Below are positions 712 to 19,202 of a DNA stretch of 64,000 nucleotides, piece by piece. Source of the stretch: Achromobacter xylosoxidans (GTDB taxonomy: Bacteria > Pseudomonadota > Gammaproteobacteria > Burkholderiales > Burkholderiaceae_B); assembly GCF_001457475.1 (NCBI RefSeq), contig NZ_LN831029.1, positions 1,984,001 through 2,048,000 on the forward strand. Reading direction: 5' to 3'. Position 1 is the first letter of the stretch. Each line of letters begins with the position of its first letter. The notes beneath the pieces were generated by a model, which worked only from the letters and a program-made list of their open reading frames with translations, was not told where the DNA came from and did not search any database. The position numbers and the translations under genes were made by a program.

Positions 712-1473
712 TCAGAAGTCCTCGCTGCGCCAGACCTTCAGCACGCGGCCGAAGACCTCGAAATCCATGCCTTCGGTGATGTCCCAGGCGTCGTACTTGG
801 TGTTTTCGGACTTGGCCCGCACCACCAGCCCGGAGGCGGTGGGAATGCGCTGCAGCCGCTTGATGAAGCCTTCGCTGCCGACGCGGAAGAAGTAGATGGC
901 GTCGTATTCGACGGCCTGCACGCCGCGGTCGACGATCAGGGGATCGCCGGGATTGAACATGGGGCGCATGGAATCGCCAAAGCCCGTGACGATGCACAGG
1001 TTCTTCGAGGCGGAAAAGCCGCGGACGTTCTTCTGCAGCCATTCGGGGCTGACGTTCCAGCTCTGGATGACGCCCGGCTGGTCGCGCAGTTCCAGGCCGC
1101 TTCCCATCGCGCCGCCGGTATCGAACTGGGCGATGAGCACATTGCCGTGATCGGGCCGGCCCAGCCGCCCGTGGTTGAAGGAGACCAGCCGGCCCGGTGG
1201 CTCGTCGGCGATGACGTCGGGCGAGAGCTCGTGCCACAGGTCGGGGTGGGGAAGATCCATCCAGTGGGCGGGCTGGCCCAGGCCGGCGGAAATCCTGGCG
1301 GCCAGGGCATCGCCGACGCGGCGCGGGTTCTTGTCGCGCTTGCCCTGGAACCCCTGGAGGATCTGGTCGAGGTATTTGCGACTCACGCCCGCGCGTTCGG
1401 CCAGGCGGTCCACCCCCCCGGCCTGGAGCACGGCGTACTTGAGGTTGTTCAGTCGTATCGAGCGGATATCCAT
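712..1473 (-). CDS. S24-family phage-type repressor (HTH plus LexA-like peptidase domain)
   Basis: This 253-residue protein has an N-terminal helix-turn-helix (about residues 19-41, with GVSRKYLDQI as the recognition part). It also has a C-terminal S24 domain with the catalytic serine in GFGDSMRPMFNPGD (Ser168) and the general-base lysine in GFIKRLQRI (Lys205). Family knowledge: such repressors bind operators as dimers and, when RecA is activated by DNA damage, cleave themselves and release lytic genes. No clear Ala-Gly or Cys-Gly cleavage dipeptide is visible in the linker, so self-cleavage is inferred from the Ser-Lys pair only. It is divergent from the 85-residue gene at 1783, with operators between. 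No ribosome-binding site precedes the ATG, and the likely -10 (1481-1486) predicts a leaderless mRNA. Confidence 0.88.
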   Translation of the reverse strand: MDIRSIRLNNLKYAVLQAGGVDRLAERAGVSRKYLDQILQGFQGKRDKNPRRVGDALAARISAGLGQPAHWMDLPHPDLWHELSPDVIADEPPGRLVSFNHGRLGRPDHGNVLIAQFDTGGAMGSGLELRDQPGVIQSWNVSPEWLQKNVRGFSASKNLCIVTGFGDSMRPMFNPGDPLIVDRGVQAVEYDAIYFFRVGSEGFIKRLQRIPTASGLVVRAKSENTKYDAWDITEGMDFEVFGRVLKVWRSEDF

Positions 1474-2245: not shown

Positions 2246-2278
2246 ACGCCCCGCGTTCTCGAACAGAGCGCGGGGCGT
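2246..2278 (+). terminator. Terminator-like hairpin T3
   Basis: A 10-bp perfect stem ACGCCCCGCG/CGCGGGGCGT with a 13-nt loop, followed by a short T-rich tail (TTCGTTT). Together with T1 and T2 it would insulate the tail operon from transcription starting at the operator region unless an antiterminator acts. Confidence 0.5.
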
Positions 2279-3126: not shown

Positions 3127-3136
3127 GGGATCTACC

Positions 3137-4612
3137 ATGGCTAATGGATTGCCGGTATCACGCCTGATCAACGTCACGATCAACATGTCGCCGCTCGCGG
3201 CGCAGGGCGCGAGCCTGAACACCGCGCTGCTGCTGGGCGCCTCCGCCGTCATTGACACCGGCGAGCGCATGCGCTCCTATGGCGGCATCGACGCCGTCGC
3301 CGCCGACTTCGGCACCGCCGCGCCCGAATATCGCGCGGCCCTGCTGTATTTCCAGCAGACGCCCCAGCCCTCGCAGTTGTACATCGGCCGCTGGGCCAAG
3401 GGCGCGACCTCGGCCACGCTGCGCGGCGCGGTGTTGTCGGCCGCCGAGAAGCAGGTGTCGGCCTGGACCGCGGTGACCGCGGGCGCCTTCACGCTGTCGG
3501 TCGACGGCACCGCCAAGACGGTCAACGGCCTGGATTTCTCCGGCGCCACCAACCTGAACGGGGTCGCGTCGATCATCTCGACGGCACTGGCCTCCGCTTC
3601 CGTCACCTGGAACGGCTCGCAGTTCGTGGTGACTTCGAACACCTCCGGCGCGACCTCGACGCTGGGCTACGCCACGGCCGCGGGCACCGGCACCGACATC
3701 GCATCGATGCTGGGCCTGACCGCGGGCCAGGCCTCGACGCCCGTCGCCGGCATCGTCGCCGAAAAGCCGGTGGACGCCGTGTCGCTGTTCCTGGACCGCT
3801 TCGCCAACAAGTTCCTGGGCCTCGCGTTCGCCGATGCCGACATCACCGACGCGCAGCACCTGGCCGTGGCCGGCCTGATCGAGGCCGACCAGCGCCACCT
3901 GTACGGTGTGTCGACCCAGGCGCCGCAGGTGCTGGACCCGACCAACCACGAGGACATCGCCAGCCAGCTGAAGGCGCTGAAATACAAGTACTCGATCGTG
4001 CAGTTCTCCAGCGCCAGCCCGTATGCGGTCGCTTCGCTGCTGGGCCGCATGCTGACGGTGAACTTCAACGCCAACAACACCACCATCACGCTGATGTACA
4101 AGCAGGAGCCCGGCATCGTCGCCGAGACCCTGACCAGCAGCCAGGCCGACACGCTGGCGGCCAAGAACTGCAACGTGTTCGTCAACTACGACAACGACAC
4201 GGCCATCATCCAGTACGGCGTGACGCCCAGCGGCATCTTCATCGACTCGGTCTACAACGCGATCTGGTTCCGCAACCGCGTCCAGACCGATGTCTACAAC
4301 CTGCTGTACACCAGCCCCACCAAGGTGCCGCAGACCGACGCCGGCAACCAGCTGATCGCCTCGGTGATCGAGGCCGCGTGCGAGGCCGCCGTCAACAACG
4401 GCTACCTGGCGCCGGGTGTGTGGAACTCGGCCGGCTTCGGCGCCCTCAAGCAAGGCGACACGCTGGCCAAGGGCTACTACGTCTACGCGCCGGCGATCGC
4501 CACCCAGTCGCAGGCCGACCGCGAAGCGCGCAAGGCCGTTCCGTTCCAGGTCGCCGCCAAGGAAGCCGGCGCCATCCACACCGTCGACGTTCTGGTCACG
4601 GTCAACCGCTAA
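3137..4612 (+). CDS. Contractile tail sheath protein (DUF3383 type)
   Basis: A 491-residue protein starting at the ATG at 3137, just after a weak purine-rich site. The N-terminus ([19 protein letters not shown]), the central [14 protein letters not shown] and FVVTSNTSG segments and the C-terminus ending in VDVLVTVNR fit the DUF3383 sheath family of small contractile phages. The sheath surrounds the tube and contracts to drive it through the target envelope. It is full length and intact. The gene for the tube follows 13 nt later, as is usual. The sheath is what makes this an R-type rather than an F-type particle. Confidence 0.9.
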
Positions 4613-4625
4613 ACAGGAGTAGCAG

Positions 4626-5066: not shown

Positions 5067-5069
5067 GCC

Positions 5070-5519: not shown

Positions 5520-5704
5520 AGAGCCTGCCCGGTGGCGAGGATTGGCTGCTGGCGCCGGTCCTCGAGGGACTCTGCAAATACGAGTCCCTCAAGGACGGCA
5601 CCCTGGACCTGGCCGACATCGCGCTCCTGAACGACGCGCTGTCGGTCCGGGCAGACAACAAGGCGGAAGCGTACCGCCGCCACATGGCGGAAAAAAATGG
5701 CTAA
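5070..5704 (+). CDS. Tail assembly chaperone, predicted -1 frameshift product
   Basis: From about 5462 the -1 frame (relative to the short form) continues with protein-like sequence (DTGWLKSLPGGEDWLLAPVL and on to RRHMAEKNG) until TAA at 5702-5704, overlapping the tape-measure start. No ATG, GTG or RBS opens this frame after 5519, so translation most likely enters by -1 slippage. Candidate slip points in the zero frame are CCT-TTT-ATA (5457-5465, with T before TTT) and AGC-CCC-GAG (5493-5501, with C before CCC); neither is a classical X-XXY-YYZ heptamer. The fused product would be about 211 residues. This mirrors the lambda G/GT arrangement, where the longer form recruits the tape measure. 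Confidence 0.6.
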
Positions 5705-7370
5705 CACAATTCTGTCCATCGACCTGTCGGGGTTGATGGGCCCATTCAAGATCGACAAGGACGACCTGAAGGACCTCAAGCAGGCAATCGGCGACTCGCG
5801 CAAGCAGAGCCTGGCCGACGCGCTCGCGGTGTTCGCGGGGCGGGCCAAGAGTGTCGTCGACTTTGCCGAAAACAAGATTGCCCAGTTCGAGCAAGGCTAT
5901 TTCGCCGCCCGGCTGGGCGGCACCTCGGGCAGGGACATGCGGGCGCTGGAGACGGTCGCGCAGGACTTCGGCGTTTCCGTCGAAGCGATGCGCAACAGTA
6001 CCCAAGCCTTGCATCGCAATGTGCGCGATGACCCCAGGGTTGCCGCGCTGCTGGAACAGCTGCATATCTCGCCGAGCGATGGCGCGGGTGGCCAGCGCAA
6101 CACCGCCGACCTGGTGCTGGAACTGAGCGATGCGCTCAAGCGCATGGACCCCGGCCAGGCCGGGGAGACGGGCAGGAAACTGGTGGTGGATGCCGGCCTC
6201 GTGGAGGCCCTGCGCGATCCAGCGTTCGGGCAGCGCCTGTCGGTGCAGCGTGACGCCGAAGAAGGCAGCAGGATCGAGGCGGCCGGCGAGCGCGCCCATC
6301 AGCTGATGGCCACCATCCGCGCCTTGAGCGGCTCCGTCGACGCGATGTTCGCGCAGGCGCTGCTGACGATGGGCCCGCAATTGCAGCAGACGCTCGACGG
6401 CATTTCGGCCTGGTTCAAGGAGAACGGGCAGACCGCCGGCAAGCGGCTGGGCGAAGTCGGCAATTTCGTGTTGTCGATCATGTCGTTGCTGGGGCCGGTG
6501 GTCAGCCTGATCACCTGGCTCGACGGCGTGACGGGGGGGCTGAGTTCGCAGCTCCTGTTGCTGGTCGGCGGATTCCTGATGCTGGGCGGCGGTGGCGTCG
6601 TGGGAGCGCTGGCAGGCCTGGTCTCGCGACTGGGTGGCATGCGGTCGCTCATCGGCGGGCTGGGCTCCCAGCTGGCGTCGTTGCCAGGACGGATCGGCGG
6701 TTTCGTGAGCCGGGCCTGGACGGTGACCAGCAATTTCGTGGCTGGCGTGTTCGGCAGGATGACGTCGATGGGCCGCACCGCCGTGACCCAGATGGGCAAT
6801 ATGGCCGGCGCGGTCTGGTCCTGGATGGGCAATATGGCCGCGCGCGGCGGCGCGCTGGTGGTCGATGGCGTCAAGGCCGCGGGCCAGACCGCGTTGCAGT
6901 GGGGCAGATCGCTGTGGGAAGCCGCGGGCTCGTGGATCGGCCGCATCGCCGACGGCGCCAAGGCGGTGGTGCGCAGCGTGGCCAGCAGCCCCGCGGCCGT
7001 GGGCGCGGGACTGCTGTTGTACCCCAGGACCCTGGGCGACGGGACGTTGAAATCGCTGGAGGGGATGCCAGGCTTTCCGGCCGGACAGCCCGGCCCGGGC
7101 CTGAACCTGCCCGGGGGCGGCATCCGGCCCGAGCACATGGACGGCGCCCAGGTCGAGCCGTGGCGCGATTACCGCTCCGGCTTCGCCACGGGCGAAACGG
7201 CGGCCAGCGTGCTGGCCGCGCCCGCGCCCGCATCGGTTTCCATCAACGCCACCACGAATATCCACGTCAATGGGACGAACGATCCCCATGCGACCGGAGA
7301 AGCCGTGGCCAATCAACAGAGCCGGGTCAATGCCGACCTGACGCGCAACCTGCAGGGATCCTATGGCTGA
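5697..7370 (+). CDS. Tail tape measure protein
   Basis: A 557-residue protein overlapping the frameshifted chaperone end. The N-terminal 220 residues are helical and charged. The middle holds several hydrophobic stretches (about residues 255-310) typical of tape measures, and the C-terminus is Ala/Pro/Gly-rich. Tape measures fix tail length at roughly 1.5 angstrom per residue, so 557 residues would give a tail tube of about 80 nm; this is a family rule of thumb and not a measurement. No lytic domain is seen. Intact, with the baseplate gene starting inside its last codons. Confidence 0.85.
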   Translation: MANTILSIDLSGLMGPFKIDKDDLKDLKQAIGDSRKQSLADALAVFAGRAKSVVDFAENKIAQFEQGYFAARLGGTSGRDMRALETVAQDFGVSVEAMRNSTQALHRNVRDDPRVAALLEQLHISPSDGAGGQRNTADLVLELSDALKRMDPGQAGETGRKLVVDAGLVEALRDPAFGQRLSVQRDAEEGSRIEAAGERAHQLMATIRALSGSVDAMFAQALLTMGPQLQQTLDGISAWFKENGQTAGKRLGEVGNFVLSIMSLLGPVVSLITWLDGVTGGLSSQLLLLVGGFLMLGGGGVVGALAGLVSRLGGMRSLIGGLGSQLASLPGRIGGFVSRAWTVTSNFVAGVFGRMTSMGRTAVTQMGNMAGAVWSWMGNMAARGGALVVDGVKAAGQTALQWGRSLWEAAGSWIGRIADGAKAVVRSVASSPAAVGAGLLLYPRTLGDGTLKSLEGMPGFPAGQPGPGLNLPGGGIRPEHMDGAQVEPWRDYRSGFATGETAASVLAAPAPASVSINATTNIHVNGTNDPHATGEAVANQQSRVNADLTRNLQGSYG

Positions 7371-7962: not shown

Positions 7963-7971
7963 GAGATACGC

Positions 7972-8271
7972 ATGAACTACTTCGAGATACCCGTGTCGCC
8001 GATTCCGCAGGTGTTCGCGATTTCGCTGGGCGGCGACGACTATCGGCTGACATTGCAATACCGCGACGGCTGGATCCTGGACGTGGCCGACGATCTGGGC
8101 CGGCCGCTGGTATGCGGCGTTCCGTTGGTGGCCGGCCTGAACCTGTTGGGCCAGTACCGCCACCTCGGTTTCACCGGCGGGCTGCGGGTGACGGGGGCGG
8201 AATCGCCGGACGACGCGCCGACGTTCACCGACCTGGGCCGCGGCGCCCGGCTTTATTGGGTGGCGGACTGA
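7972..8271 (+). CDS. Baseplate plug-like protein
   Basis: A 99-residue protein with GGAGA (7963-7967) before the ATG. The start MNYFEIPVSPIPQVF and the repeated beta strands (YRLTLQYRDGWILDVAD) are characteristic of the short plug protein that follows the Dit-like gene in cyanophage Pam3- and AP22-like baseplates. It likely fills the hub interior and connects it to the tube. It is followed, with 1 nt between stop and start, by the hub gene. Confidence 0.65.
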   Translation: MNYFEIPVSPIPQVFAISLGGDDYRLTLQYRDGWILDVADDLGRPLVCGVPLVAGLNLLGQYRHLGFTGGLRVTGAESPDDAPTFTDLGRGARLYWVAD

Positions 8272-8272
8272 C

Positions 8273-9301
8273 ATGGCCGGGACGACCACAATGGAACCCA
8301 TCGCCGTGTACGGCGATCCGGTGGACGACGACAAGGGCGTGCGCCAGTGGGGCAGGAAAGTGTCGTTGATCGTCGGCGACGAGGAAGCGCTGGATCTGTC
8401 GGCGCTCAGTTTCAGCTTCGCGATCAAGCGCAATGATGCCAAGACGCCCAACACCGCCACCATCAAGGTGATGAATGCCAGTCGCGAGACGGCCAGCATG
8501 GTGCAGCGCGAATTCACCCGGGTCGTGCTGCAGGCCGGCTACGAGGGCAACTACGGCGTGATCTTCCACGGCAACGTGGTGCGGGCCAGGTGGGGCGGAT
8601 CGGGCGACACCGAGACGGTGCTGGAGATCACGGCGGCCGATGGCGACAAGGCCTACAACTTCGCGGTGGTCAATGCGACCGTGCCCAAGGGCTCCACCCG
8701 CGCCGACAAGGTGCGGTTGCTGTGCTCGGCCATGAACCTGTATGGCGTCAGGCAGGGCTACGTGCCCGACCTGGGCGGCAAGACCGCCATCCGCGGAGCC
8801 GTGATGTCCGGCATGGTGCGCGACCACATGCAGGACGTCTGTGACGGCGCGAACACGCTGTGGAGCATCCAGGACGGCAAAGTCGTGATCGTTCCCGAGA
8901 CCGCCTACGTGCCGGGCTCGGTGCCCGTCATCTCGCACGACACCGGCCTGGTCGGCATGCCCGAACAGGCAGAGAAGGGCATCAAGGTGCGCATGTTGCT
9001 CAACCCCAGCATCCGCGTGGGCGGGCTGGTCAACCTGGACAACAGCCGCATCGCCGAGTACGGCTACGAGGGGCGCGCCCAGGGCAAGGACGCGACAGAA
9101 ATCGATCGCGGCGAACAGCGCCGCATCAGCGGCGACGGCTACTACTACGTCATGGAAGTCGAGCATCGCGGGCATACCCGCGACAACGACTGGTACACGG
9201 AGATCCTGTGCCTGGCCACCGATGCGACGCTGTTCCCGGGCGACCTGGGACGGGCAGGGGCGGAGGGCGCCGCGGCCAGGCCGGCCGACGTCGTCAAGTA
9301 A
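8273..9301 (+). CDS. Baseplate hub protein
   Basis: A 342-residue protein between the plug and spike genes, the place of the hub (gp27/gpD/gp44-like). Features include an N-terminal beta region (KVSLIVGDEEALDLSALSF), a phage-hub-like YEGNYGVIFHGNVVRARWGG segment near residues 85-105, and a C-terminal YYYVMEVEHRGHTRDNDWYT stretch. Hub trimers sit above the spike and form the adaptor from threefold to sixfold symmetry. The Ala-rich last 15 residues look disordered. Confidence 0.75.
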   Translation: MAGTTTMEPIAVYGDPVDDDKGVRQWGRKVSLIVGDEEALDLSALSFSFAIKRNDAKTPNTATIKVMNASRETASMVQREFTRVVLQAGYEGNYGVIFHGNVVRARWGGSGDTETVLEITAADGDKAYNFAVVNATVPKGSTRADKVRLLCSAMNLYGVRQGYVPDLGGKTAIRGAVMSGMVRDHMQDVCDGANTLWSIQDGKVVIVPETAYVPGSVPVISHDTGLVGMPEQAEKGIKVRMLLNPSIRVGGLVNLDNSRIAEYGYEGRAQGKDATEIDRGEQRRISGDGYYYVMEVEHRGHTRDNDWYTEILCLATDATLFPGDLGRAGAEGAAARPADVVK

Positions 9302-9335
9302 CGGCCCGCGCGGCTTCATTTCAGCAGGATGATTC

Positions 9336-10079
9336 ATGAACCGACTAGAGAATTTGAACGACCCGCAAGCCGCGATCGGCGCGGCGCTGCGCGGCGCGCT
9401 GGCGCAGACCTGGACCGCCATGCCGGCCATCATCGGCGCGTTCGACCCGGTGGCCATGACGTGCACCGCGCAACCGGCCATCCGCGCGCGCGTCACCACG
9501 CCCGAGGGAACGCAGCGCAGCATGACGTTGCCGCTGCTGGTGGATTGCCCCGTGTACTTTCCCGCGGGGGGCAATTGCACGCTGACTTTCCCGGTGAAGC
9601 CCGGGGACGAATGCCTGGTGGTGTTCGCGTCGCGCTGCATCGATGCCTGGTGGCAATCGGGCCAGGTCCAGGACCAGGCGGAAGTGCGGATGCATGACCT
9701 GTCCGACGGCTTTGTCTATGTGGGCGTGCGGTCGCAGCCGCGGGTGCTGCCCGCGGTCAGCACTCACACGACCCAGTTGCGCAGCGACGACGGCTCGACG
9801 TTCCTGGAGCTGGATCCGGCCGCGGGCAAGGTGAGGATCGTGGCGCCGGGCGGCTTCGACGTGGTCGCGCCGACGTCCGAGTTCTCCGGACAGGTGCTGG
9901 TCAACGGCCTGCTGAGCTATCTGGCCGGCCTGGTCGGCAGCGGCGGCCAGGGCAATACCGCCCAGATCACCGGCGTGTTGAACGTGATCGGCCAGATCCT
10001 GGCCAATGGAAAACGGGTGGACGACACGCACACCCACATCGCCCAAGGGGCCAACGCGGTGACCACACCGCCCAATTGA
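9336..10079 (+). CDS. Baseplate spike protein (Gp138/Gp5-like)
   Basis: A 247-residue protein. Residues 20-110 have the OB-fold look of Gp138_N-type spike domains (TWTAMPAIIGAFDPVAMTCT, LPLLVDCPVYFPAGG). The C-terminal part shows beta-helix-like repeats (SEFSGQVLVNGLLSY, ITGVLNVIGQILANGK). It ends with KRVDDTHTHIAQG, the THTH motif that coordinates metal at the tip of membrane-piercing spikes. It would form the trimeric needle at the tube end. Its gene is followed directly by the wedge genes. Confidence 0.85.
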   Translation: MNRLENLNDPQAAIGAALRGALAQTWTAMPAIIGAFDPVAMTCTAQPAIRARVTTPEGTQRSMTLPLLVDCPVYFPAGGNCTLTFPVKPGDECLVVFASRCIDAWWQSGQVQDQAEVRMHDLSDGFVYVGVRSQPRVLPAVSTHTTQLRSDDGSTFLELDPAAGKVRIVAPGGFDVVAPTSEFSGQVLVNGLLSYLAGLVGSGGQGNTAQITGVLNVIGQILANGKRVDDTHTHIAQGANAVTTPPN

Positions 10080-10087
10080 GGACTCCC

Positions 10088-10441
10088 ATGCGTTACCGAA
10101 AACTGGACGCCGACGGCGACTATTCATTCGGCTCGTCACGGGCCGATTTCCATCGCGACACGGCCGCGACCGTGGCTCAGGCCGTCAAGACGCGGCTGAT
10201 GCTGGCGCGCGGTGAATGGTTCCTCGACGTCACCGAAGGCATGCCCTGGCGCGGCGAGGTGCTGGGCAAGCAGTCCAGGGCCAGCTACGACTGGGCCATC
10301 CGCCAGCGCATCCTGGGCACGGCCGGCGTGACCGGTCTGGCCGGGTATTCGAGCCGGCTCGATCCGCAAACCCGCGGCCTGAGCGTTACGGCATCCATCT
10401 CAACCCTTTACGGCACGGCCACTGTGCAGGCGGCATTATGA
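10088..10441 (+). CDS. Baseplate wedge protein, gp25-like
   Basis: A 117-residue protein. The ATG at 10088 is chosen because TTGAGGAC lies just upstream and overlaps the spike stop. It has the compact alpha/beta pattern and RYRKLDADGDYSFG start seen in the gp25/W-like wedge proteins of small contractile phages, and it is followed by the J-like gene with which gp25 proteins always pair. gp25 anchors the first sheath ring to the baseplate. The last codons overlap the next start (ATGA). Confidence 0.75.
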   Translation: MRYRKLDADGDYSFGSSRADFHRDTAATVAQAVKTRLMLARGEWFLDVTEGMPWRGEVLGKQSRASYDWAIRQRILGTAGVTGLAGYSSRLDPQTRGLSVTASISTLYGTATVQAAL

Positions 10442-11619
10442 CGATTCCATCCACGGCCCCGGTCATCGACGCCGCGGGCATACGCGCGCCGAGTTACGGC
10501 GAGGTGCTGCAGTATTTCAAGGAGCAGTACCGCGGCATCTACGGCGCGGACACCTATCTGGAGGCGGACAGCCAGGACGGCCAGTTGCTGGCCCTGTTCG
10601 CCCTGGCCATCCACGAGGCCAACACGGCGGCGATCAATGTGTACAACGCGTTCTCGCCCGCCACCGCCGCCAATGCGGCGCTGTCCAGCAACGTCAAGAT
10701 CAACGGCCTGGCGCGCGGCGTGGCGACGCGCTCTGCGGTGGACCTGCGCATCGTCGGGCAGGGCGGCGTCACCATCGTCGATGGCGTGGCGACCGATGCC
10801 AATCGCGGCCGCTGGCAATTGCCGTCCAGCGTCACCATCCCGCCTGGCGGCGAGATCACCGTCACCGCGCTTAGCCAGACGCTGGGCGCGGTGACGGCGC
10901 CGGCCGGCAGCGTCAACCAGATCGGCACGCCGACGCTGGGCTGGCAGTCCGTCACCAATCCGGCGGCCGCGACCCCCGGCGCGCCGGTCGAGAGCGATGC
11001 CGCTTTGCGGGTGCGGCAGGCCATCTCGGTGGCCCTGCCATCGCGCAGCGTGCTGGAGGGCACCATCGGCGCGGTGGCGTCGGTGCCCGGGGTATTGCGC
11101 CATGCCGCCTTCGAGAACGACGCCGCGGTGGTCGACGCCCACGGGCTGCCGCCGCACAGCATCGCCCTGGTGGTCGACGGCGGCGACGCGGCCTCGATCG
11201 CGCAAGCCATCGCCGCCAAGAAGACGCCCGGCACGGGCACGCACGGCACCACCGCGGTGGTGGTGACGGACATCTACGGCATCGCGCATCGCATCCGCTT
11301 TTTCCGGCCCACCCTCGTGCCGCTCTCGGTGCAGGTGCAGATGCGGGCGCTGCCCGGGTACACCACGGCCATCGGGCAAGCGGTGCAGCGCGCGGTTGCC
11401 GACTACATCAATGGGGTCGCGATCGGCGGCGGCGCCAGCGCCTCGGTGGAATGGGCCGACGCTATCTCGGCCGCGAACGGCGTGGCGGGCAATGGCACGT
11501 TCAAGATCACGGGCCTGGCGCTGCGCGGCCCGGCCGGCGATGGCGCGCCGGATGTGCCGCTGGCCTTCAACGAAGCCGCCGCCGCGACGCCCGACGACGT
11601 GAAACTCACGGTGAGCTGA
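10438..11619 (+). CDS. Baseplate J-like protein
   Basis: A 393-residue protein starting at the ATG that overlaps the wedge stop by 4 nt. The region APVESDAALRVRQAI, the Gly/Ala-rich core with GSVNQIGTPTLGWQSVTNP, and IRFFRPTLVPLSVQVQMRAL are hallmarks of the P2 J/T4 gp6 baseplate family. J-like proteins form the ring of wedges that opens when the sheath contracts. It is intact and complete. Confidence 0.9.
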   Translation: MTIPSTAPVIDAAGIRAPSYGEVLQYFKEQYRGIYGADTYLEADSQDGQLLALFALAIHEANTAAINVYNAFSPATAANAALSSNVKINGLARGVATRSAVDLRIVGQGGVTIVDGVATDANRGRWQLPSSVTIPPGGEITVTALSQTLGAVTAPAGSVNQIGTPTLGWQSVTNPAAATPGAPVESDAALRVRQAISVALPSRSVLEGTIGAVASVPGVLRHAAFENDAAVVDAHGLPPHSIALVVDGGDAASIAQAIAAKKTPGTGTHGTTAVVVTDIYGIAHRIRFFRPTLVPLSVQVQMRALPGYTTAIGQAVQRAVADYINGVAIGGGASASVEWADAISAANGVAGNGTFKITGLALRGPAGDGAPDVPLAFNEAAAATPDDVKLTVS

Positions 11620-11620
11620 C

Positions 11621-12286
11621 ATGGCCAATACGGACGACTACATCGCGCGGCTGTCGGCCTGGCACCGCGGCAAGCCCAGGTTCGTTGCCACCGTGACCGC
11701 CCTGTGCGGCGCGGCGGCCAGCCTGCGTGAGTTGTACGGCGGCATGCCGGCGGCTTTCGACCTGGACCTGGCGGTCGGGGCGCAGCTGGATGCCGTGGGG
11801 CGCTGGGTGGGGCTGGACCGGAAGGTCCGCACGCCGATCGCCAACGTGTATTTCTCGCACGACACCGACGGCCTGGGTTTCGACCAAGGGGTATGGCAGG
11901 GACCGTTCGATCCGGACAGCGGCCTGACCGCGCTGGACGACGACACCTATCGCCTGCTGCTGCGCGCCAAGATCGGCGCCAACCACTGGGACGGCACGCT
12001 GGAGACGTCGGCCGCCATCCTGGAGCGCATCTTCGGCGGCGGCACCCACGTGTTCATCCAGGACAACGGCGACATGTCGGTCGACATCGGCGTCGCCGGC
12101 ACGCCGCCGTCGGCGCTGTTCCTGGCGCTCCTGACGGGCGGATACATCCCGCTCAAGCCGGAGGGCGTGCGCATCAGTTACTACGTCATCCCCTCGAACG
12201 AGGGGCCCCTGTTCGGTTTTGACGTTCAGAACCATTACATCTCGGGGTTCGACAGCGGACTCTGGGGTTCGCTTTTCGCAGGTTGA
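11621..12286 (+). CDS. DUF2612 baseplate/tail protein (P2 I-like)
   Basis: A 221-residue protein 1 nt after the J-like gene. It has the DUF2612 look: LAVGAQLDAVGRWVGLDRKV, FSHDTDGLGFDQGVWQGPFD, and a C-terminal FDSGLWGSLFAG. In contractile phages this gene lies between J and the fibre and links the fibre to the wedge, as I/gp7 proteins do. The FD..LW motif appears twice (near residues 83-93 and 212-220), likely a repeated beta element. Confidence 0.8.
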   Translation: MANTDDYIARLSAWHRGKPRFVATVTALCGAAASLRELYGGMPAAFDLDLAVGAQLDAVGRWVGLDRKVRTPIANVYFSHDTDGLGFDQGVWQGPFDPDSGLTALDDDTYRLLLRAKIGANHWDGTLETSAAILERIFGGGTHVFIQDNGDMSVDIGVAGTPPSALFLALLTGGYIPLKPEGVRISYYVIPSNEGPLFGFDVQNHYISGFDSGLWGSLFAG

Positions 12287-12300
12287 ATAAGGACAATTCC

Positions 12301-13248
12301 GTGGCTATCAATCAAATTCTTCCCTTCGGCACCGTGCCCGGCGCCAACGTGCTCGATCCCGCCGACTACCAGGCCCTGGCTGCCCGGCTGGGCGGCTTCT
12401 CGGCCGGCACGGCCAAATCCAAGGAACTCAACACCGTCTGGCGCCAGGCGTCCTTCGTGGCCGCCATGATCGGCCAGTACATCGCCGACAAGACGGGCCA
12501 GGACGTACTGGACGACGGCGACCTGGCGGCGCTGCAGGCCCGCTTCGTGGCGGCGCTGGCGGCGTCGCCGGCGCTGACCGGGACCCCGACCGCACCGACG
12601 CCGGCGGCGGGGGACAAGAGCGCCCGTATCGCCACGACCGCGTTCGTGGCGGGGAATTTCCCCAGGATCTACTCGATCAATGCGCTGCCGACTCAGGATG
12701 TCGGTCCCATCATCGTCGCGGAATGCGCCGAAGTGTGGAACTGGGTGACCGGACAGTATTTCACCGGCTACCGCTCGCCGCTTTGCGGCCGCCCGTTGGA
12801 CGGCCATACCAACCTGCCGCTGGCCAGCGAGGTCGACGCCACCGGCGGTTTGCTGTCGAAGACGGACTACGCCGCGCTATGGGGTTACGCGCAGGAGCAG
12901 GGGTTGGTGAAAACCGAGGCCGTGTGGTCGGCAAACCGCGGCAGCCATTGGTTTTCGGACTATTCGGCGACACAGTTCCGGGTGCCGGATCTGCGCGATA
13001 TGTTCCGTCGGTTTACCGGAACTGACGCTGACACTGCAAATGCGAGAGCGATGGCTAGCCGGCAGGCCGGAGCAATCGCCAGCCACTCTCACGCAATCCC
13101 AAACGAAACTTGGGACGCGTTCAGCGGTTCCTCTGCAATGGGTGTTGGGGGTAAGTCAGGCACGGTCATAGGACGGGGAACGACGAACACTGGAGGCAAG
13201 GAAACGCGGCCTACCAACGTCGCTTTCTATCCCCGGATTCACGCTTGA
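12301..13248 (+). CDS. Tail fibre protein with exchangeable C-terminus (cassette A active)
   Basis: A 315-residue fibre. The start is taken as GTG at 12301 because AAGGAC (12289-12294) is well placed; a TTG upstream at 12283 is unlikely. Residues 1-244 are constant and contain a collar-like part (RVPDLRDMFRRFTG). From Thr245 (TANARAMASRQ) the sequence is encoded after a 13-bp core repeated in three silent cassettes downstream. The active tip has the SHSH motif and the usual C-terminal NVAFYPRIHA. The fibre tip decides which target surface is bound, so replacing it would change killing range. Confidence 0.88.
   Translation: MAINQILPFGTVPGANVLDPADYQALAARLGGFSAGTAKSKELNTVWRQASFVAAMIGQYIADKTGQDVLDDGDLAALQARFVAALAASPALTGTPTAPTPAAGDKSARIATTAFVAGNFPRIYSINALPTQDVGPIIVAECAEVWNWVTGQYFTGYRSPLCGRPLDGHTNLPLASEVDATGGLLSKTDYAALWGYAQEQGLVKTEAVWSANRGSHWFSDYSATQFRVPDLRDMFRRFTGTDADTANARAMASRQAGAIASHSHAIPNETWDAFSGSSAMGVGGKSGTVIGRGTTNTGGKETRPTNVAFYPRIHA
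13032..13044 (+). repeat. Shufflon recombination core, active site copy
   Basis: CACTGCAAATGCG within the fibre gene, read in frame as ACT-GCA-AAT-GCG after the first C. It is the only copy in direct orientation; three inverted copies lie at 13446-13458, 13718-13730 and 13980-13992. The next bases AGA are shared with the copy of cassette B but not with C and D. The bases before the core differ in all four, so 13 bp is the common core. Confidence 0.88.
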
Positions 13249-13250
13249 TT

Positions 13251-13458
13251 TCAGACATGAATCCGTGGGTGATAGGCAATATTCATCGGTCGTGTTTCTG
13301 GGCCGCCTGACAGTCCCGTGGTGCCGGAGCCATAAAGCGCGTAAGAACTCTGGCCTGGCCCTAACGAGCCTTCTCCTACGCCCACGGCCAAGCTTGTGTG
13401 GAGGTGGCTTTGGACTTGCTGCGGCTGGCGCGTCGCTAGCGTTCTCGCATTTGCAGTG
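13251..13458 (-). other. Silent tail-fibre C-terminal cassette B
   Basis: Read on the minus strand from the core, the frame encodes 68 residues beginning TANARTLATRQPQQVQSHLH and ending MNIAYHPRIHV, then TGA at 13251-13253. It has no start codon or ribosome-binding site of its own. It aligns with the active tip at both ends, including an HxH motif (SHLHT), and differs in the middle. Fused to the constant region it would give a fibre of 312 residues. Confidence 0.88.
13446..13458 (-). repeat. Shufflon recombination core, cassette B
   Basis: Minus-strand copy of CACTGCAAATGCG, followed by AGA as in the active copy. It is inverted relative to the copy at 13032, so recombination between the two inverts 13032-13458 and does not delete it. 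Confidence 0.85.
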
Positions 13459-13468
13459 GGACGGACGG

Positions 13469-13730
13469 TCAGGCATGAATACGGGGGAGGTAGGCAGTGT
13501 TCAGGCTCCGATTCTCAGTTCCGCCCGCTGCGCTTACCCCTTGGTTGCTATCCCTCGTGACATATTCCGATTCCGATCCGTTCGCGTTGAAGGGCCAATA
13601 GTTGTTCCCTCCATTAACTGCGCGCATGGTCGAGCCGAGGCCGCCGCCAGACCGCTGCATGATTAGCGTATGAACGTGCGCTTTCATTGCATCCGCCTGG
13701 CGCGTGCCCAGCACCCGCGCATTTGCAGTG
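13469..13730 (-). other. Silent tail-fibre C-terminal cassette C
   Basis: The minus-strand frame from the core encodes 86 residues starting TANARVLGTRQADAMKAHVH and ending NTAYLPRIHA, with its stop at 13469-13471. It is longer than the active tip, with a central RSGGGLGSTMRAVNGGNNYW stretch not seen in A or B. It has an HxH motif (AHVHT). No promoter or start is seen, so it is silent unless inverted. The fused fibre would be 330 residues. Confidence 0.88.
13718..13730 (-). repeat. Shufflon recombination core, cassette C
   Basis: Minus-strand copy of CACTGCAAATGCG. It is followed by CGGGTGCTGGG, a longer match shared only with cassette D, which suggests that C and D recombined or duplicated more recently. 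Confidence 0.85.
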
Positions 13731-13739
13731 ACGACGACG

Positions 13740-13992
13740 TCATACGTGCAGGCGCGGATGATAGGCAACGTTGGCAGGCCTCACCCGGGCCACGTTGCCA
13801 GACGTTGGGACGCCTGCTGTTCCCGGCGCGCTGGCGATCTTCATACCGGCCATTGGCACCGCCGGTTCCAGTCCCCAATCTGCGACGCCGGTCGTCGAGT
13901 AGTCAGCGATCGAGGAAAGGCCCGTCGGGCCGCCGTTCACTGCAATGCTGCTTCCCTGCTGTTTGGATCCCAGCACCCGCGCATTTGCAGTG
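13740..13992 (-). other. Silent tail-fibre C-terminal cassette D
   Basis: The minus-strand frame from the core encodes 83 residues starting TANARVLGSKQQGSSIAVNG and ending NVAYHPRLHV, stop at 13740-13742. Unlike A, B and C it lacks the HxH motif near its start, so its tip may fold differently. It lies directly before the ribosome-binding site of the fibre-assembly gene, so inversion through its core leaves that gene intact. The fused fibre would be 327 residues. Confidence 0.87.
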
Positions 13993-13997
13993 CAAAT
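13980..13997 (-). repeat. Shufflon core of cassette D inside a 15-bp palindrome
   Basis: The core CACTGCAAATGCG occupies 13980-13992 on the minus strand. Only here it overlaps the perfect palindrome ATTTGCAGTGCAAAT (13983-13997), so part of the core is also present in the opposite direction at the outer border of the shufflon. Confidence 0.8.
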
Positions 13998-14020
13998 TTC
14001 ATTCCGAAGGAGAAAACAAT

Positions 14021-14371
14021 ATGCAAAAAGCAGTATTCCAGACCGACAACGACGGCCTTTACCTGTATCAGTCGACCGCAAACGAACTGGCCTTGACGCC
14101 GGGCACATTCAACATCCCCTACGGCGCATACGAGGACGCGCCGCCGGCGCCTCCGGCCGGAAAATGGCCCCGGCGCCTGGGCGATGCCTGGGCCATGGTC
14201 GATGACTATCGCACCACGCCGCTGTGGGTGGTGGAGACGGGAGCGCCGTATTCGATCGGCGCGCAGCATGACGGCACGATCGGCAAGGTCAGCTATCCGG
14301 GCTGGGGGGAATTGCCGGCCTGGCTGACCGCGGTGGAACCGCCGCGCCCGGTTGAAAGCGCTGCCGCGTAG
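14021..14371 (+). CDS. Putative tail-fibre assembly chaperone
   Basis: A 116-residue protein. GAAGGAGA (14006-14013) before the ATG at 14021 decides the start; the frame is open further upstream but that part runs into the shufflon. Small aromatic-rich proteins right after the fibre gene are usually fibre-assembly chaperones. This one has FNIPYGAYEDAPPAPPAGKW and a WVVETGAP segment in that style, but no firm family match is claimed. It stays outside the invertible segment, so it must serve all four fibre tips. It converges with the recombinase gene, 2 nt apart. Confidence 0.65.
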   Translation: MQKAVFQTDNDGLYLYQSTANELALTPGTFNIPYGAYEDAPPAPPAGKWPRRLGDAWAMVDDYRTTPLWVVETGAPYSIGAQHDGTIGKVSYPGWGELPAWLTAVEPPRPVESAAA

Positions 14372-14373
14372 CG

Positions 14374-15396
14374 TCAGGCGGCCAGGGGCAACGTATCCAG
14401 CTCGATCTCGCGCTCGCGCCGCATTTCCTCGAGCTGGCGCCGGCCTAGCTGGCTGCGCGCCAGCTTCTGGGCCAGTTCGCGCCCATGCGGGTGGTAATAG
14501 CGCAGCAGCATGCGGGTGTCGACGTTGCCGTTGACCTTGGCCAATTCATGGATCTGGAACACGGTGGCAAGTTGCGACGTGCCTTCGTGTCGCAGATCAT
14601 GGAATCGCAGGTCGCGGAAGTAGGCGGGATTGGGGCGCCGGCCATAGTGCCGGCACATGCCTTCGTATCGCGATCGGGCACGGCGACGGGCGCGAATGAA
14701 TGCCCGGGTGACCGAGCCGGGTTGCATTGCGAAGATGCGACCTCGCATCGGTTTGCCTGTGACCCAGCGGCGCAGGGCCTCGCGGGCCCGGGGGGTAAGC
14801 GGAACATCGCGGGCCCGGCCATTTTTCGTGTGGGGCAGATGCACCACTCCGTGCATCAGATCCAGATGCTCGCGCTGGATCCCCACGACCTCGGACCGGC
14901 GCATGCCGGTTTCCTTGGCCACCGTCAGGATCGTGGGTAGCTCGGCCGAGCGGGTGGCGCGGATGATCCATTCCAGTTCTTTGCGCGGACAGTCGTCCTC
15001 CGACAGCCCGCGCAGGGTAATGCGGTCGAACAGACGCCGGTCTCGAGCGTCGTCCACAGCCGGACGTCGCACCAGCTGGACAGGATTGGCCAACTGGTCG
15101 AAACCCCAATCCTTTCGGATCACCGTATAGACGTGTGACAGGAAAGCCATGCGGCGCACCACGGTGGCCGGGGCACGATCCTTGAGCCATTCGTCGCGCA
15201 ATTCCGTCAGGTCCGAGCTGCGGATGCGATCGACCGGGCGGATCGCCAGACGCGTGGCGCGCCAGATCCGCGCGATCGACTGTTCCGACGTATGGCCTTT
15301 CTTGGTTGCCGAGACCTCGAGGAGATAGCGGGCGAGCGCCTCGGCGAGGGTCGGAGCGGGCTTGCGGCGAGGTTGGCGGCGGGTCCAAGGTTTCAT
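14374..15396 (-). CDS. Tyrosine recombinase, probable shufflon recombinase
   Basis: A 340-residue protein from the ATG at 15396; the frame is open further upstream but without family-like sequence. Catalytic residues seen: Arg166 in TGMRRSE, Lys191 in HTKNGRAR, His266-x-x-Arg269 in FHDLRHE, and Tyr300 in LLRYYHP. The usual LGH motif before the tyrosine reads VNG, so its histidine is missing. The N-terminal 150 residues fit a SAM-like core-binding domain. It sits 3' of the shufflon and before the lysis genes, not at the end of the element where an integrase normally lies, and no attachment sites were found. This favours a role in inverting the fibre cassettes, as Rci does in R64. A remnant integrase remains possible. 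Confidence 0.75.
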   Translation of the reverse strand: MKPWTRRQPRRKPAPTLAEALARYLLEVSATKKGHTSEQSIARIWRATRLAIRPVDRIRSSDLTELRDEWLKDRAPATVVRRMAFLSHVYTVIRKDWGFDQLANPVQLVRRPAVDDARDRRLFDRITLRGLSEDDCPRKELEWIIRATRSAELPTILTVAKETGMRRSEVVGIQREHLDLMHGVVHLPHTKNGRARDVPLTPRAREALRRWVTGKPMRGRIFAMQPGSVTRAFIRARRRARSRYEGMCRHYGRRPNPAYFRDLRFHDLRHEGTSQLATVFQIHELAKVNGNVDTRMLLRYYHPHGRELAQKLARSQLGRRQLEEMRREREIELDTLPLAA

Positions 15397-15551
15397 GGCA
15401 GGTCGGACTGAAAGGAAAGGGAAATAGACAGGGAAGATACCAGGACGCATGCAGGCAGCGCCTGCACCAAACGGACGACAGTGTCGCCCGCATTTCAATT
15501 TGTCCATCCGGTGCGCCATTGCGGCGCCCGTGATGTTCACGGGAGGCAGCA

Positions 15552-16043
15552 ATGCGCACCGTCGACAGGAGCGGTGTAACCATGGAACCGGCATCTACAG
15601 GATTGGGCGGCTGGGCCGCCCTGAAAATCGCGCTGGCCTTCGGCATGCCGGCGGCGATGGCGGCCTTGATCGGCATGTTGCTGATGCCGCCGCGCACGCC
15701 GCGCGAATTCGTCGCGCGCACCGCTTGCACGGTGGTCAGTTCTTTTCTGTTCGGGCCGTTGCTGGCGATCGCCATGATTGCCTGGATGCCCGACATCATG
15801 TCGTCCGCCTATTGGATGGCGCAGCGCACCGGGCTGGGCGAGGACGGTCTTCTGGCCATGTTCTACGTCCTCGGCCCCTGCATGCTGCTGGCCGGCTTGC
15901 CGGCCTGGTGGGTGCTGGGCGCCTACCTGCGCCTGACCGCCAAGCTGCAGAACCAGGACCTGGTGGACTGGGCGGTGGAGATCCGGCGCAAGACGCTGGG
16001 CATGGATACCCAAACGGATAAGGAGGGCAGGCATGACGCTTGA
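15552..16043 (+). CDS. Holin-like membrane protein
   Basis: A 163-residue protein with GGGAGG (15541-15546) before the ATG. Three hydrophobic helices are visible at about residues 22-45, 60-80 and 102-127, and the C-terminal 35 residues are charged. The family was not recognised. It lies first in the lysis cassette and overlaps the endolysin gene by 11 nt, which makes a holin the best reading: it would open the inner membrane at release. It is divergent from the recombinase, so a promoter is expected between 15397 and 15551, but no clear boxes were seen. Confidence 0.65.
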   Translation: MRTVDRSGVTMEPASTGLGGWAALKIALAFGMPAAMAALIGMLLMPPRTPREFVARTACTVVSSFLFGPLLAIAMIAWMPDIMSSAYWMAQRTGLGEDGLLAMFYVLGPCMLLAGLPAWWVLGAYLRLTAKLQNQDLVDWAVEIRRKTLGMDTQTDKEGRHDA

Positions 16044-16563
16044 CCAGATCACGGATCACGCGCTGCGGCCGGCGATGGCATTACTGCCGGCGCGCATGGA
16101 TACGGGCGAGGCGCGTTGCATGCTGCTGGCGATCGGCCTGCAGGAAAGCCGCTTCGTGCATCGGCGCCAGATCGGCGGACCGGCGCGCGGTTTCTGGCAG
16201 TTCGAGAGGGGCACGCCCGCCAGTCGCGGCGGTGTGTGGGGCGTGTTCCTGCACGCGGCGAGCAGGGATTGGCTGACCGCGCTGTGCCGGGCGCGCGGCG
16301 TGGCCGCCGATCCGGACGCGATCCACGCCGCGCTCGAGCATGACGACGTGCTGGCGGCGGGCGTCGCCCGGTTGCTGCTCTGGACCGATCCGAAGGCGCT
16401 GCCGCCGGTCGGCGAGACGAATGCGGCGTGGGCGCTGTATCTGCGCACCTGGCGGCCGGGCAAGCCCAAGCCTGACAGTTGGCCCGCCCTGTATCAGCAG
16501 GCCGTTGCGGCCGTCCGGGCGCGGGTAGACAGGAGCGCGACGCATGTTGCAGCAATGGATTAA
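16033..16563 (+). CDS. Endolysin, lysozyme/transglycosylase-like
   Basis: A 176-residue protein overlapping the holin-like gene. It has LAIGLQESRF (residues 33-42), with a Glu placed like the catalytic glutamate of transglycosylase-fold lysozymes, and GPARGFWQFERG (about 50-61), which resembles the GxxQF element of the fold. No signal peptide is present, so it would reach the wall through the holin. It breaks peptidoglycan to free the tailocin particles. It overlaps the inner spanin gene by 20 nt. Confidence 0.75.
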   Translation: MTLDQITDHALRPAMALLPARMDTGEARCMLLAIGLQESRFVHRRQIGGPARGFWQFERGTPASRGGVWGVFLHAASRDWLTALCRARGVAADPDAIHAALEHDDVLAAGVARLLLWTDPKALPPVGETNAAWALYLRTWRPGKPKPDSWPALYQQAVAAVRARVDRSATHVAAMD

Positions 16564-16816
16564 GCGGGGCCTCGGCTTGATGGCGGCAGTGCTGGCGGGC
16601 CTGGCCGCCGTCGCCGGGGTTTATTGGCGGGGGCGGGCCATGGGCCGGGCGCAGGAACGCTCGGACAGTGCGGCCCGCCTCCAGGAGCGGGCGGGCCAGG
16701 CCCGCCAGGAGGCCAGGGATGTGCAGGATAAAGTGGCTCGCAGCGATGACGATGCCGTGGCTGATCGCCTCAAGTCTGGGTGGGTGCGCGCCGCTTCCCC
16801 CGAGGACCGGGATTGA
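16544..16816 (+). CDS. Inner-membrane spanin (Rz-like)
   Basis: A 90-residue protein with one N-terminal transmembrane helix (about residues 8-28) and a periplasmic, charged helical domain rich in Gln, Arg, Asp and Glu suited to a coiled coil. It is short for an Rz protein (usually 120-180). The outer spanin gene begins inside it in the +1 frame. The two proteins would join through the periplasm and fuse inner and outer membranes in the last step of lysis. Confidence 0.75.
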   Translation: MLQQWIKRGLGLMAAVLAGLAAVAGVYWRGRAMGRAQERSDSAARLQERAGQARQEARDVQDKVARSDDDAVADRLKSGWVRAASPEDRD

Positions 16817-16937
16817 GTATTGCGAGCATGCACGGCCGGTATATTTCAATTCCGCCGCCGAGGTCGACGCCACGCCGCCGAACATCCGCCGGCAGGTGCT
16901 CGAGCATAATGAAATGGTGGCTCGGCTTTGTTTTTGA
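16719..16937 (+). CDS. Outer-membrane spanin lipoprotein (Rz1-like)
   Basis: A 72-residue protein nested in and extending beyond the inner spanin gene, in the +1 frame. AGGAGG (16707-16712) lies 6 nt before its ATG, a decisive signal. It has a signal sequence ending in the lipobox SSLGGC (Cys24), then a proline-containing start of the mature part (APLPPRTG) and a helical end. This is the classic overlapping Rz/Rz1 layout. The acylated cysteine would anchor it to the outer membrane. Confidence 0.78.
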   Translation: MCRIKWLAAMTMPWLIASSLGGCAPLPPRTGIEYCEHARPVYFNSAAEVDATPPNIRRQVLEHNEMVARLCF

Positions 16938-17046
16938 GGTAAATTGGGGACGCGGATTTTTCATCGTCGGGAACCTGATTCCTGGCGCCGGCAGGCGATG
17001 AATGAGTATGCCGCGGTCTGGTTCTGCAATGATTTCTGGTTTTTCG

Positions 17047-17077
17047 CCAACCCGCGCCCGAGGCGCGGTTGGCTTTT
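17047..17077 (+). terminator. Terminator after the tailocin lysis genes
   Basis: CCAACCCGCGCC and GGCGCGGTTGG pair (one bulged C) around CGA, followed by CTTTTC. It lies 109 nt after the outer spanin stop and before the GGDEF gene, and probably marks the right limit of the element's transcription. Confidence 0.65.
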
Positions 17078-17158
17078 CCAGGAGAGGCGCAATGGGTCAG
17101 AGAATGCAGTATCGGCAAACGTGTTGTCCCGCGCGGTGGCGCGGCCGGGAAAAACAAC

Positions 17159-18736
17159 ATGGCTGATGGCGAAAGCCTGGCCGTCGCGCGGGTCCGTTCC
17201 AAGCACCGGTATTCGATGCGCACCGGCCTGCTTGGGCTGGTGGTCGCCTGTATCGCGCCGGCGCTGGTGGTGGCCTCGATCGCCGTCTACGAAAGCTATC
17301 TGATCCAGAAAGAGCGGATTTTTCGCGACACGATTTTCCTGGCGCGCAACCTCACTGCCATCCTCGATCGCGAAATGACCGGGGTCGAGGCCGGCTTGCA
17401 GATGCTGGCATCATCGCCAGACCTGCTCAGTGGCGACATGGCCGGATTTCACCAGCGCGCCCGCGAAGCCATCAAGTTCCAGGTCATCGACAGTTATGTC
17501 CTGACGGACAGGTCCGGTCGCCAGCTCGTCAATACCCTGGTGCCCTATGGCACCGAACTGCCGCCATCGGGCGTGGCGCAAGAGCTGGCGCGGGTTTTCC
17601 GCGCGCGCGAACCGGTGTTGAGCGGCTTGTTCACCAGCGCCGTCGGCCGCAGTCCGACCATTGCGCTGGGTGTCCCCGTGGTGCGCGGCGATGACGTCAT
17701 CTACAGCCTCAACGTGGGCCTGTCGCCCGAGCGCATCGGCAATGTGCTGGGACGTCGCGGACTGCCGGACGGCTGGGTGGCGGCGGTGCTGGACAAAAGC
17801 GGCACCATCATCGCGCGTACCCGCGACATGGAGCGCTTCGTCGGGCAGAAGGCGGTGCCGGCATTGGCGCACGCCGTGCAGATGGAAAACGAGGGCTCGC
17901 TGGAAACCATCACCAAGGAAGGCACCCCGGTCTATACCGCGTTCAGCCGATCCAGCCTGACCGGTTGGACGGTCGCGGCCGGCGCGCCGATGACGTTGGT
18001 GACGACCGATCTGTATCGTTCCATCGCCTGGCTGGTGCTGGGCACGCTGGTAACCTTCGGGCTGGGGCTGTGGCTGGCCCTGCGGCTGGCCAACCGCCTG
18101 ACCTCGGCGGTGCAGGGCCTGGTCGGACCGGCTCTGGCGCTGGGTGAAGGCCGCAGCGTCGAGTTGCCCGGCACGCGCGTCAAGGAGGCCGCCGAGGTCG
18201 GCGCGGCCTTGCTGCAGGCGTCGCGCATGCTGGCGCACGCGCAACACCTGGCGCACTACGATCCGTTGACGGGGCTGTGCAACCGGGTACTGTTCGGCGA
18301 ACTGGTGCTGCGTGAGCTGGCCGTGGCGCAGCGCAGCGGCGAGTCGTTCGCCATCCTGGCGATCGACCTGGACGGCTTCAAGGCGGTCAATGACCGGCAT
18401 GGGCATGCCGCGGGCGACACCGTGCTGAAAGAGGCGGCAGACCGCATGGCCCGTGCCATCCGGGTGTCGGACGTGGCGGCGCGGCAAGGTGGCGATGAGT
18501 TCGCCGTGCTGCTGCTGGGGGCCGGGGGCGACGACGCCACGGGAGTCGCCGAAGCCCTGGTCGAAAGCCTGTCGCAGCCGTATCCCAATATCCAGGTGGC
18601 GGTTTCCGCCAGCATAGGCATCGCGGTCTATCCGCAGTCCGGCGTCACCATGCTGCAATTGCTGGAGCGGGCCGATGTCGCCTTGTACCGGGCCAAGGGC
18701 CTGGGCAAGCGGCGCGTGGCCTTTGACGGCCCCTGA
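17159..18736 (+). CDS. Membrane diguanylate cyclase (GGDEF) with periplasmic sensor domain
   Basis: A 525-residue protein from the ATG at 17159 (a later ATG at 17216 is possible). It has TM1 at about residues 20-42, a periplasmic dCACHE-like sensor (about 45-280), TM2 at about 285-305, a short linker and a GGDEF domain. The active-site motif is intact (GGDEF at 444-448), with DLDGFKAVND upstream for metal binding. It would make c-di-GMP in response to an outside signal. It is the first chromosomal gene right of the tailocin and ends facing the small gene at 18771. Confidence 0.88.
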   Translation: MADGESLAVARVRSKHRYSMRTGLLGLVVACIAPALVVASIAVYESYLIQKERIFRDTIFLARNLTAILDREMTGVEAGLQMLASSPDLLSGDMAGFHQRAREAIKFQVIDSYVLTDRSGRQLVNTLVPYGTELPPSGVAQELARVFRAREPVLSGLFTSAVGRSPTIALGVPVVRGDDVIYSLNVGLSPERIGNVLGRRGLPDGWVAAVLDKSGTIIARTRDMERFVGQKAVPALAHAVQMENEGSLETITKEGTPVYTAFSRSSLTGWTVAAGAPMTLVTTDLYRSIAWLVLGTLVTFGLGLWLALRLANRLTSAVQGLVGPALALGEGRSVELPGTRVKEAAEVGAALLQASRMLAHAQHLAHYDPLTGLCNRVLFGELVLRELAVAQRSGESFAILAIDLDGFKAVNDRHGHAAGDTVLKEAADRMARAIRVSDVAARQGGDEFAVLLLGAGGDDATGVAEALVESLSQPYPNIQVAVSASIGIAVYPQSGVTMLQLLERADVALYRAKGLGKRRVAFDGP

Positions 18737-18770
18737 CTCCGCCATGCTGCCTTCCCCGTGCCTTCCTGCT

Positions 18771-19031: not shown

Positions 19032-19202
19032 GCGGCCTGATCTCCCTCTTGTCGGTGGTTGCACTGATCCGCCGCGCGCCGGCATTCCTTGCCGGCATGC
19101 CGATGTCGCCGCGGCTGTTTTCCTGTTTCGCTACACTGCGTCGTTCTGGCGCGCGTTGCCCGGCGCGGCGCCTGGATGGACCTCGGGCAATCGGAAAAAG
19201 TA

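Follow-up and report, generated by a model that had tools for sequence, protein, structure and literature searches.

A probable tail-fibre shufflon with four predicted tips inside a putative R-type tailocin of Achromobacter

The gene cluster and its fibre array

The window, by which we mean the whole stretch of 64,000 nucleotides that was analysed, carries a gene cluster that spans from an S24-type repressor (712..1473, minus strand), which forms its left edge, to about position 16560. Profile matches identified the repressor and, on the plus strand, a tail sheath (DUF3383; 3134..4612), a structural protein (PF11681; 4626..5066) that is probably the tail tube given its place after the sheath, a tape measure (5697..7370; phrog_2276, 4.8e-20), a baseplate hub (8273..9301), a baseplate J-like protein (10381..11619; PF04865, 9.7e-11) and a DUF2612 protein (11621..12286) directly ahead of the fibre gene; a tail terminator and a Dit-like protein are also present. 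Two small plus-strand genes (15552-16043 and 16033-16563) were assigned to lysis by position only, the first matching nothing above the cut-off and the second matching phrog_3108, whose function is not known. Among the open frames searched between the repressor and the flanking host genes (not every small one), we found no head, portal or terminase/packaging gene. The host genes are DUF4153, AI-2E transporter, DUF3053, GNAT and adenylosuccinate lyase genes on the left and GGDEF and EamA genes on the right. Rfam gave nothing in positions 1-20000, and the four tRNA genes of the window lie at 22396 and beyond.

Four related genomes (G011, G012, G030 and G032) each match the cluster and both of its flanks within a single contig, with a DNA identity of about 76-90%. 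Synteny is partial in three others: the alignment of G026 begins at 1404 on the left, that of G006 takes two contigs, and that of G019 covers the tail part and the right flank. The sheath itself occurs at 90% identity or above in 10 of the 43 genomes of the genus. Tail and baseplate genes of the contractile kind are present, none for a head turned up among the frames searched, and the position in the chromosome is shared with related species; we read the cluster as a putative R-type tailocin of Achromobacter. Presumably the particle is produced and kills, with the fibre tip deciding the target.

The constant part of the fibre gene (12301..13031, plus strand; phrog_11303 tail fiber, 4.3e-35; phrog_1858, 9.2e-21) begins with a GTG start that is common to its relatives. 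It is followed by cassette A (13032..13248, plus strand), the tip currently in frame, and by three silent cassettes on the minus strand, designated B (13251..13458), C (13469..13730) and D (13740..13992). Cassette A opens with a 13-bp core, CACTGCAAATGCG, at 13032-13044 (+), and the same core stands at 13446-13458 (-) in B, 13718-13730 (-) in C and 13980-13992 (-) in D. Counted from the core, each of the four frames is open for 68-86 residues, and the endings resemble one another (PRIHA in A and C, PRIHV in B, PRLHV in D), and the predicted fibres from the start at 12301 are 315 (A), 312 (B), 330 (C) and 327 (D) aa long. The array has at least three sites, some of them inverted, and alternative ends for one gene, as is typical of a shufflon (a multiple DNA inversion system).

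An earlier account made from the letters alone (hereafter the sequence-only reading) had given these core sites, cassette borders, fibre lengths and PRIH/PRLH endings with every coordinate correct. It also pointed out that the cores are all read in the same phase, as TANA, which holds but is uninformative, since TANA is fixed by the core itself; we do not count it as evidence, and it is the open frames and like endings that inform. Its statement that only the active core is in direct orientation describes the window's present state but is no rule, as a second direct core occurs in G011, L083, L121, L137 and L138.

In the complete genome sequence, a single contig of 6,813,182 bases, the exact core has four sites, all within this array, and the core pattern read backwards has none. 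When up to two mismatches were allowed, the window held 5 matches where 3.18 are expected; a loosely matched core is thus common, and the evidence rests on the exact matches. Codon use across 12 genes of this GC-rich locus (ACT for 5 of 208 Thr, GCA for 15 of 397 Ala, AAT for 25 of 97 Asn), set against the ACT, GCA and AAT codons of the core, indicates that the core is kept as DNA, beyond any need of the protein. Solved structures yielded no sequence match for the recombinase described below or for the fibre, and an AlphaFold model of the fibre (13 sequences; mean pLDDT 44, pTM 0.25) was discarded.

A Tfa-like tail fibre assembly gene (14021..14371, plus strand; phrog_105, 2e-7; phrog_1807, 1.7e-6; no Pfam match) stands between the cassettes and a recombinase gene. 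Whereas Mu and P1 switch their assembly gene together with the fibre, this one lies outside the shuffled part, and it would probably serve all tips through their common C-terminal motif. Convergent to it is the gene for a tyrosine recombinase of 340 aa (14374..15396, minus strand; PF00589, 3.3e-18), which we propose as the invertase; its open frame extends to 15594, and relatives start at the methionine at 15396. The sequence-only reading had the cassettes right and passed over both this neighbouring recombinase and the lack of head genes. The catalytic Arg, Lys, His-x-x-Arg and Tyr are present, and the usual His/Trp position is Asn (residue 291). Among 59 recombinase rows this position is His in 35, Asn in 21 and Trp in 3. 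The enzyme of L118, an array seen inverted (see below), has Asn as well, so this residue seems compatible with activity. Only about 15 residues lie ahead of the core-binding part, which leaves no arm-binding domain; in this the enzyme is like Rci, described as lacking an arm domain (PMC8138268), and unlike the armed integrases at L054, L203 and L204.

Distribution of the recombinase and its site

In a tree of the 59 rows, 56 of them different, the enzymes of fibre shufflons formed one clade of 41 rows (support 100/99). Some of these rows are near-identical pairs, and all but L217 had at least one core in the stretch examined. The clade adjoins armed integrases at lower support (90/92), and two Rci rows fall outside it, with a long-branch warning around Rci. 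Compared with Rci of an IncI1/B/O plasmid, the window enzyme has 35% identity, and it stands outside the Rci branch. Past the end of that match (window residue 312) the Rci rows continue for 101-102 residues, whereas the window enzyme has 28 there and is without the long C-terminal part.

Matches to the recombinase were found by protein search in 64 records of a phage collection, all below 60% identity. Two of the 20 phage matches listed (34-35%) were inspected, and their neighbours, as annotated, include no fibre array. Some phage recombinase rows carry the label "shufflon-specific", which is a name only. A DNA search of the collection gave a single 80-base match, to Bordetella phage PHB04 (two records of it).

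Within the genus, 26 of 43 genomes have a recombinase match at E 1e-20 or better. Near-complete copies of at least 70% identity occur in 16 of the 43, and cores accompany them in 16/16, in G012 as the variant CACTGCTAATGC. G020, whose recombinase match has 53% identity, has no cores, and G040 has cores with no recombinase match, its contigs ending at arrays. The one-contig genome G035 (L055) retains two intact cores next to a recombinase that is only a fragment and contains a stop, and it may hold a locked array. Seven single core matches with no adjoining fibre were dropped from the counts (G005, G013 (C2), G014, G015, G017, G036 and G037). At the orthologous tailocin locus, recombinase and cores are both present in 8 of 10 genomes and both absent in the other two, G009 (L228, G009:C4) and G021 (L227, G021:C12), where the fibre diverges after residue 164. 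At L227 and L228 the fibre end, tfa and recombinase are replaced by an unrelated core-free module.

Across the family, 32 of 268 genomes, from 11 of 43 genera, match the recombinase at 1e-60. Of 19 loci in other genera picked by the recombinase alone, 14 have at least two cores at no more than one mismatch; three of the remaining five are cut by a contig end (L217, L218 and L219), a single core lies at L213, and there is none at L223, whose enzyme is an armed integrase. Large arrays in other genera include L211 with nine cores and L215 with ten if two mismatches are allowed, and further arrays hold six (L078), seven (L142) and nine (L137). The recombinase clade and arrays of up to ten cores go together in tailocins and prophages of several genera. 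The viral contigs in the set were found via patterns that hold the core, so core conservation among them is biased; the other loci were found via the recombinase.

The module is also found in G041, with a recombinase 95% identical to that of the window, inside a prophage that has genes for a terminase, a major head protein and a RecT-like protein, and a sheath 25% identical to the window's, indicating that it serves quite different tails. This prophage lends some colour to the idea that the window holds the same shufflon in a phage, or in a satellite packaged with the help of another phage, in place of a tailocin. We regard that as unlikely, because the frames searched between the repressor and the host genes held no head, portal or terminase gene and because the cluster is syntenic, flanks included, in other species.

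To describe the site itself, we compared 79 active and 129 silent sites, most of them found by pattern, which biases the core itself. Conservation covers the core and extends a few bases rightwards; on the left, silent sites share little beyond a G at -8. The active/silent flag was automatic (an open frame upstream) and was wrong for L092 4133 and L137 12257, which have a silent flank, so one comparison group was set aside and the 79/129 division is slightly impure. At L215 the first two core bases vary with the left flank, and at L206 a core variant ending TG accompanies one cassette at both an active and a silent place; together these patterns suggest that the exchange point probably lies within CTGCAAATG. 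The sfx site of R64 is described with a variable left arm and a conserved spacer and right arm (PMC11852207), and the window's site is likewise one-sided. The one-sidedness of sfx is held, in the same source, to favour inversion over deletion (PMC11852207).

Head-to-head core pairs 13 bases apart were observed at L215 (5051/5064, 5583/5596 and 6650/6663), L211 (3174/3187) and L214 (5202/5215), which makes cassettes possible on both strands between sites. More distant recombinases at L219, L221 and L222 come with altered cores, CATTGCAAATGC and CAATGCAAATGC, a possible sign that enzyme and site have evolved together.

Signs of inversion and competing explanations

When the 474 bp between two cores of the viral contig L117 were flipped, it agreed with the viral contig L118 with 0 mismatches in 3,829 positions, compared with 296 unflipped. 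L079 is in the same state as L117, and in L099 (99.9% identical over 2,882 bases) the constant part is joined to a third cassette, one that is silent in L117 and L118. Both L117 and L118 are metagenome-type viral contigs, so they could represent two strains instead of one clone.

Draft genomes from several species of the genus carry forks at the arrays. In G019 (A. pulmonis) and G021 (A. ruhlandii), an identical 111 bases, comprising a cassette and a core, sit on the constant part in one contig and on a silent flank in another, and a core forms the very start or end of contigs in G006 and G018. Over 38 core sites in the arrays of 11 drafts, a contig end lies within 98 bp of a core in 7/11 and within 10 bp in 5/11, where the chance values sum to about 0.45 and 0.06; contig numbers were rounded for this count, which left out genomes of 1 to 3 contigs and the second small array of G032 (C551). 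Four of the 11 drafts (G011, G030, G031 and G032) are unforked, as is the second array of G019. Forks could also come from mixed strains or paralogous loci.

Over 77 bases of cassette and core, two different fibre loci of G040, L071 (G040:C44) and L061 (G040:C97), are identical, the stretch being in frame at one locus and silent at the other; 111 and 77 are assembler word lengths. Because two loci share the cassette, G040 is weak as fork evidence, and the sharing itself is possibly a tip exchange between loci. At L039 (G011, A. insuavis; cores 5320 and 6550), the in-frame cassette and the tfa-adjacent cassette are identical over 238 bases; either the cassette is really duplicated or the assembly has fused two states.

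The window's own strain was seen in one cassette state only. An identical cassette order in related genomes, which the sequence-only reading had counted as an argument against a shufflon, was not what we observed: both content and order differ. Over 13069-13966, only cassette A aligns with relatives, in G030 and G032, and the homologue of this active cassette is inverted at the orthologous locus of both (78.7% in G030 and 81.3% in G032), in G032 seemingly behind a core one base short.

A relic could account for some of these observations: the recombinase would be an integrase that a decayed prophage left behind, and past cassette capture, with no present flipping, would explain the cores and spare 3' ends. 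Consistent with this, the window's genome is seen in one state, related armed integrases exist, one of them on a plasmid, and the cores of G035 persist beside a recombinase reduced to a fragment. We nevertheless judge a relic very improbable, given that the enzyme has no arm domain and its clade goes with core arrays, that L117 and L118 differ by a core-to-core inversion and draft contigs fork, and that the cluster is bordered directly by host genes on either side. About as improbable is shuffling in trans by another recombinase of the cell, such as a serine invertase; the genome does have two resolvase-family genes, and Xenorhabdus tailocins are described whose fibre ends are inverted and whose locus lacks an invertase (PMC13280938), but both genes (the genome's two PF00239 matches, a serine invertase having been rejected on this ground as the catalyst at the locus) lie at least 1.8 Mb away, a tyrosine enzyme stands beside the arrays in many lineages, and enzyme and cores are absent together at the tailocin locus of G009 and G021.

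A tail-fibre shufflon with four exchangeable tips, as first proposed from the sequence, is still the best reading: a fitting recombinase adjoins the array, enzyme and core co-occur across genera, and inversion is seen in homologues. We are highly confident that it lies inside an R-type tailocin of Achromobacter and is driven by the 14374-15396 recombinase. The shufflon is very probably real and active in its family, and cells probably swap which tip the particle wears; we infer that the neighbouring recombinase is the catalyst and that it is active in this strain. The enzyme would recombine two oppositely oriented cores and so invert the DNA between them, and an inversion that takes in the core of the fibre gene would bring a different cassette into frame after the constant part. 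One clone could then make particles with any of the four tips, and a culture would contain a mixture.

Known systems and the pool of tips

In the tailocin carotovoricin Er, fibre inversion is two-state and the invertase, Ein, is a serine enzyme. Inversion there swaps the fibre end and changes the killing range (PMC12090994, PMC13195805); the window has four tips and a tyrosine enzyme where carotovoricin is described with an invertible fibre region. The sequence-only reading knew of no described multi-cassette fibre shufflon of this kind with this core; multi-cassette tail shufflons as such are on record, namely Min of plasmid p15B (serine) and Rin of Bifidobacterium prophages (tyrosine) (PMC6109161). 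Min, Gin of Mu and Cin of P1 all swap tail-fibre ends by inversion, Min with multiple cassettes, and all three are serine recombinases, in contrast to the tyrosine recombinase of the window (PMC6109161). Rin, also found in Eggerthella lenta prophages (PMC8778435), resembles the window locus in its armless tyrosine recombinase beside the array and in a tail receptor-binding protein with a constant N-terminus and several C-terminal cassettes (PMC6109161). Its site is short and asymmetric (11 bp, TTCCCTAACCC), and inversions were seen in sequence data. Rin differs in its site, its hosts, a siphophage-type receptor-binding protein and the lack of a tailocin, and the likeness we draw is one of anatomy and published description only.

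R64 Rci is, like the window enzyme, an armless tyrosine recombinase that carries out multiple inversion of C-terminal segments, but it acts on the pilus adhesin PilV and not on a tail fibre (PMC11852207). The same work tested 14 Rci homologues, one of them "SI-B. ubonensis", and its main text, as far as available, makes no mention of Achromobacter, Bordetella, phage or tail (PMC11852207). Elsewhere, inversions are described in the tail-fibre regions of prophages from four species of proteobacteria (PMC5903667), and an integrase of a Pf-5 prophage has been likened to Rci (PMC2647930). In the open-access literature we found no paper with both "shufflon" and "tailocin", and of the papers listed that connect Achromobacter with tailocins, with inversion or with phage tail-like structures, none was evidently on such a system; the scope being open-access, the absence of an earlier report is weakly supported. 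Multi-cassette tail shufflons were thus already known, and what is new here is another tyrosine-invertase clade, another site, the tailocin setting and 158 distinct complete tips.

These tips come from 263 sites in our set, where 224 cassettes reach a stop. Of these, 190 stay open and end R[IVL]H, at 65-106 residues, 158 of them different; the other 34 complete cassettes are without this ending, some being truncated or frameshifted. The counts are from a partial sample in which genomes and viral contigs overlap in part. At L121 (10724), the in-frame cassette is frameshifted a few codons past the core, stops after 19 residues and looks broken, and the others there are intact. It is possible, and we suggest it tentatively, that one armless tyrosine invertase clade and one 12-bp site form a docking standard for Burkholderiales tips, a large portable library shared by unrelated tails, those of headless tailocins as well as of prophages. 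If so, the killing particle and the phages of a bacterium would draw on the same tips, within and perhaps between loci.

Such arrays also call for caution with annotation, as drafts are prone to break there and any annotated fibre is one of several states. If our reading is true, a shufflon run by a tyrosine recombinase lets a single culture make tailocins with differing aims, of which we found no example in the open-access literature. The locus would then be a natural system for asking whether mixed tips let sister cells reach a wider set of targets, what keeps an armless tyrosine enzyme from deleting the cassettes that lie between direct cores, and by what route tips move from phages to bacterial weapons or back.
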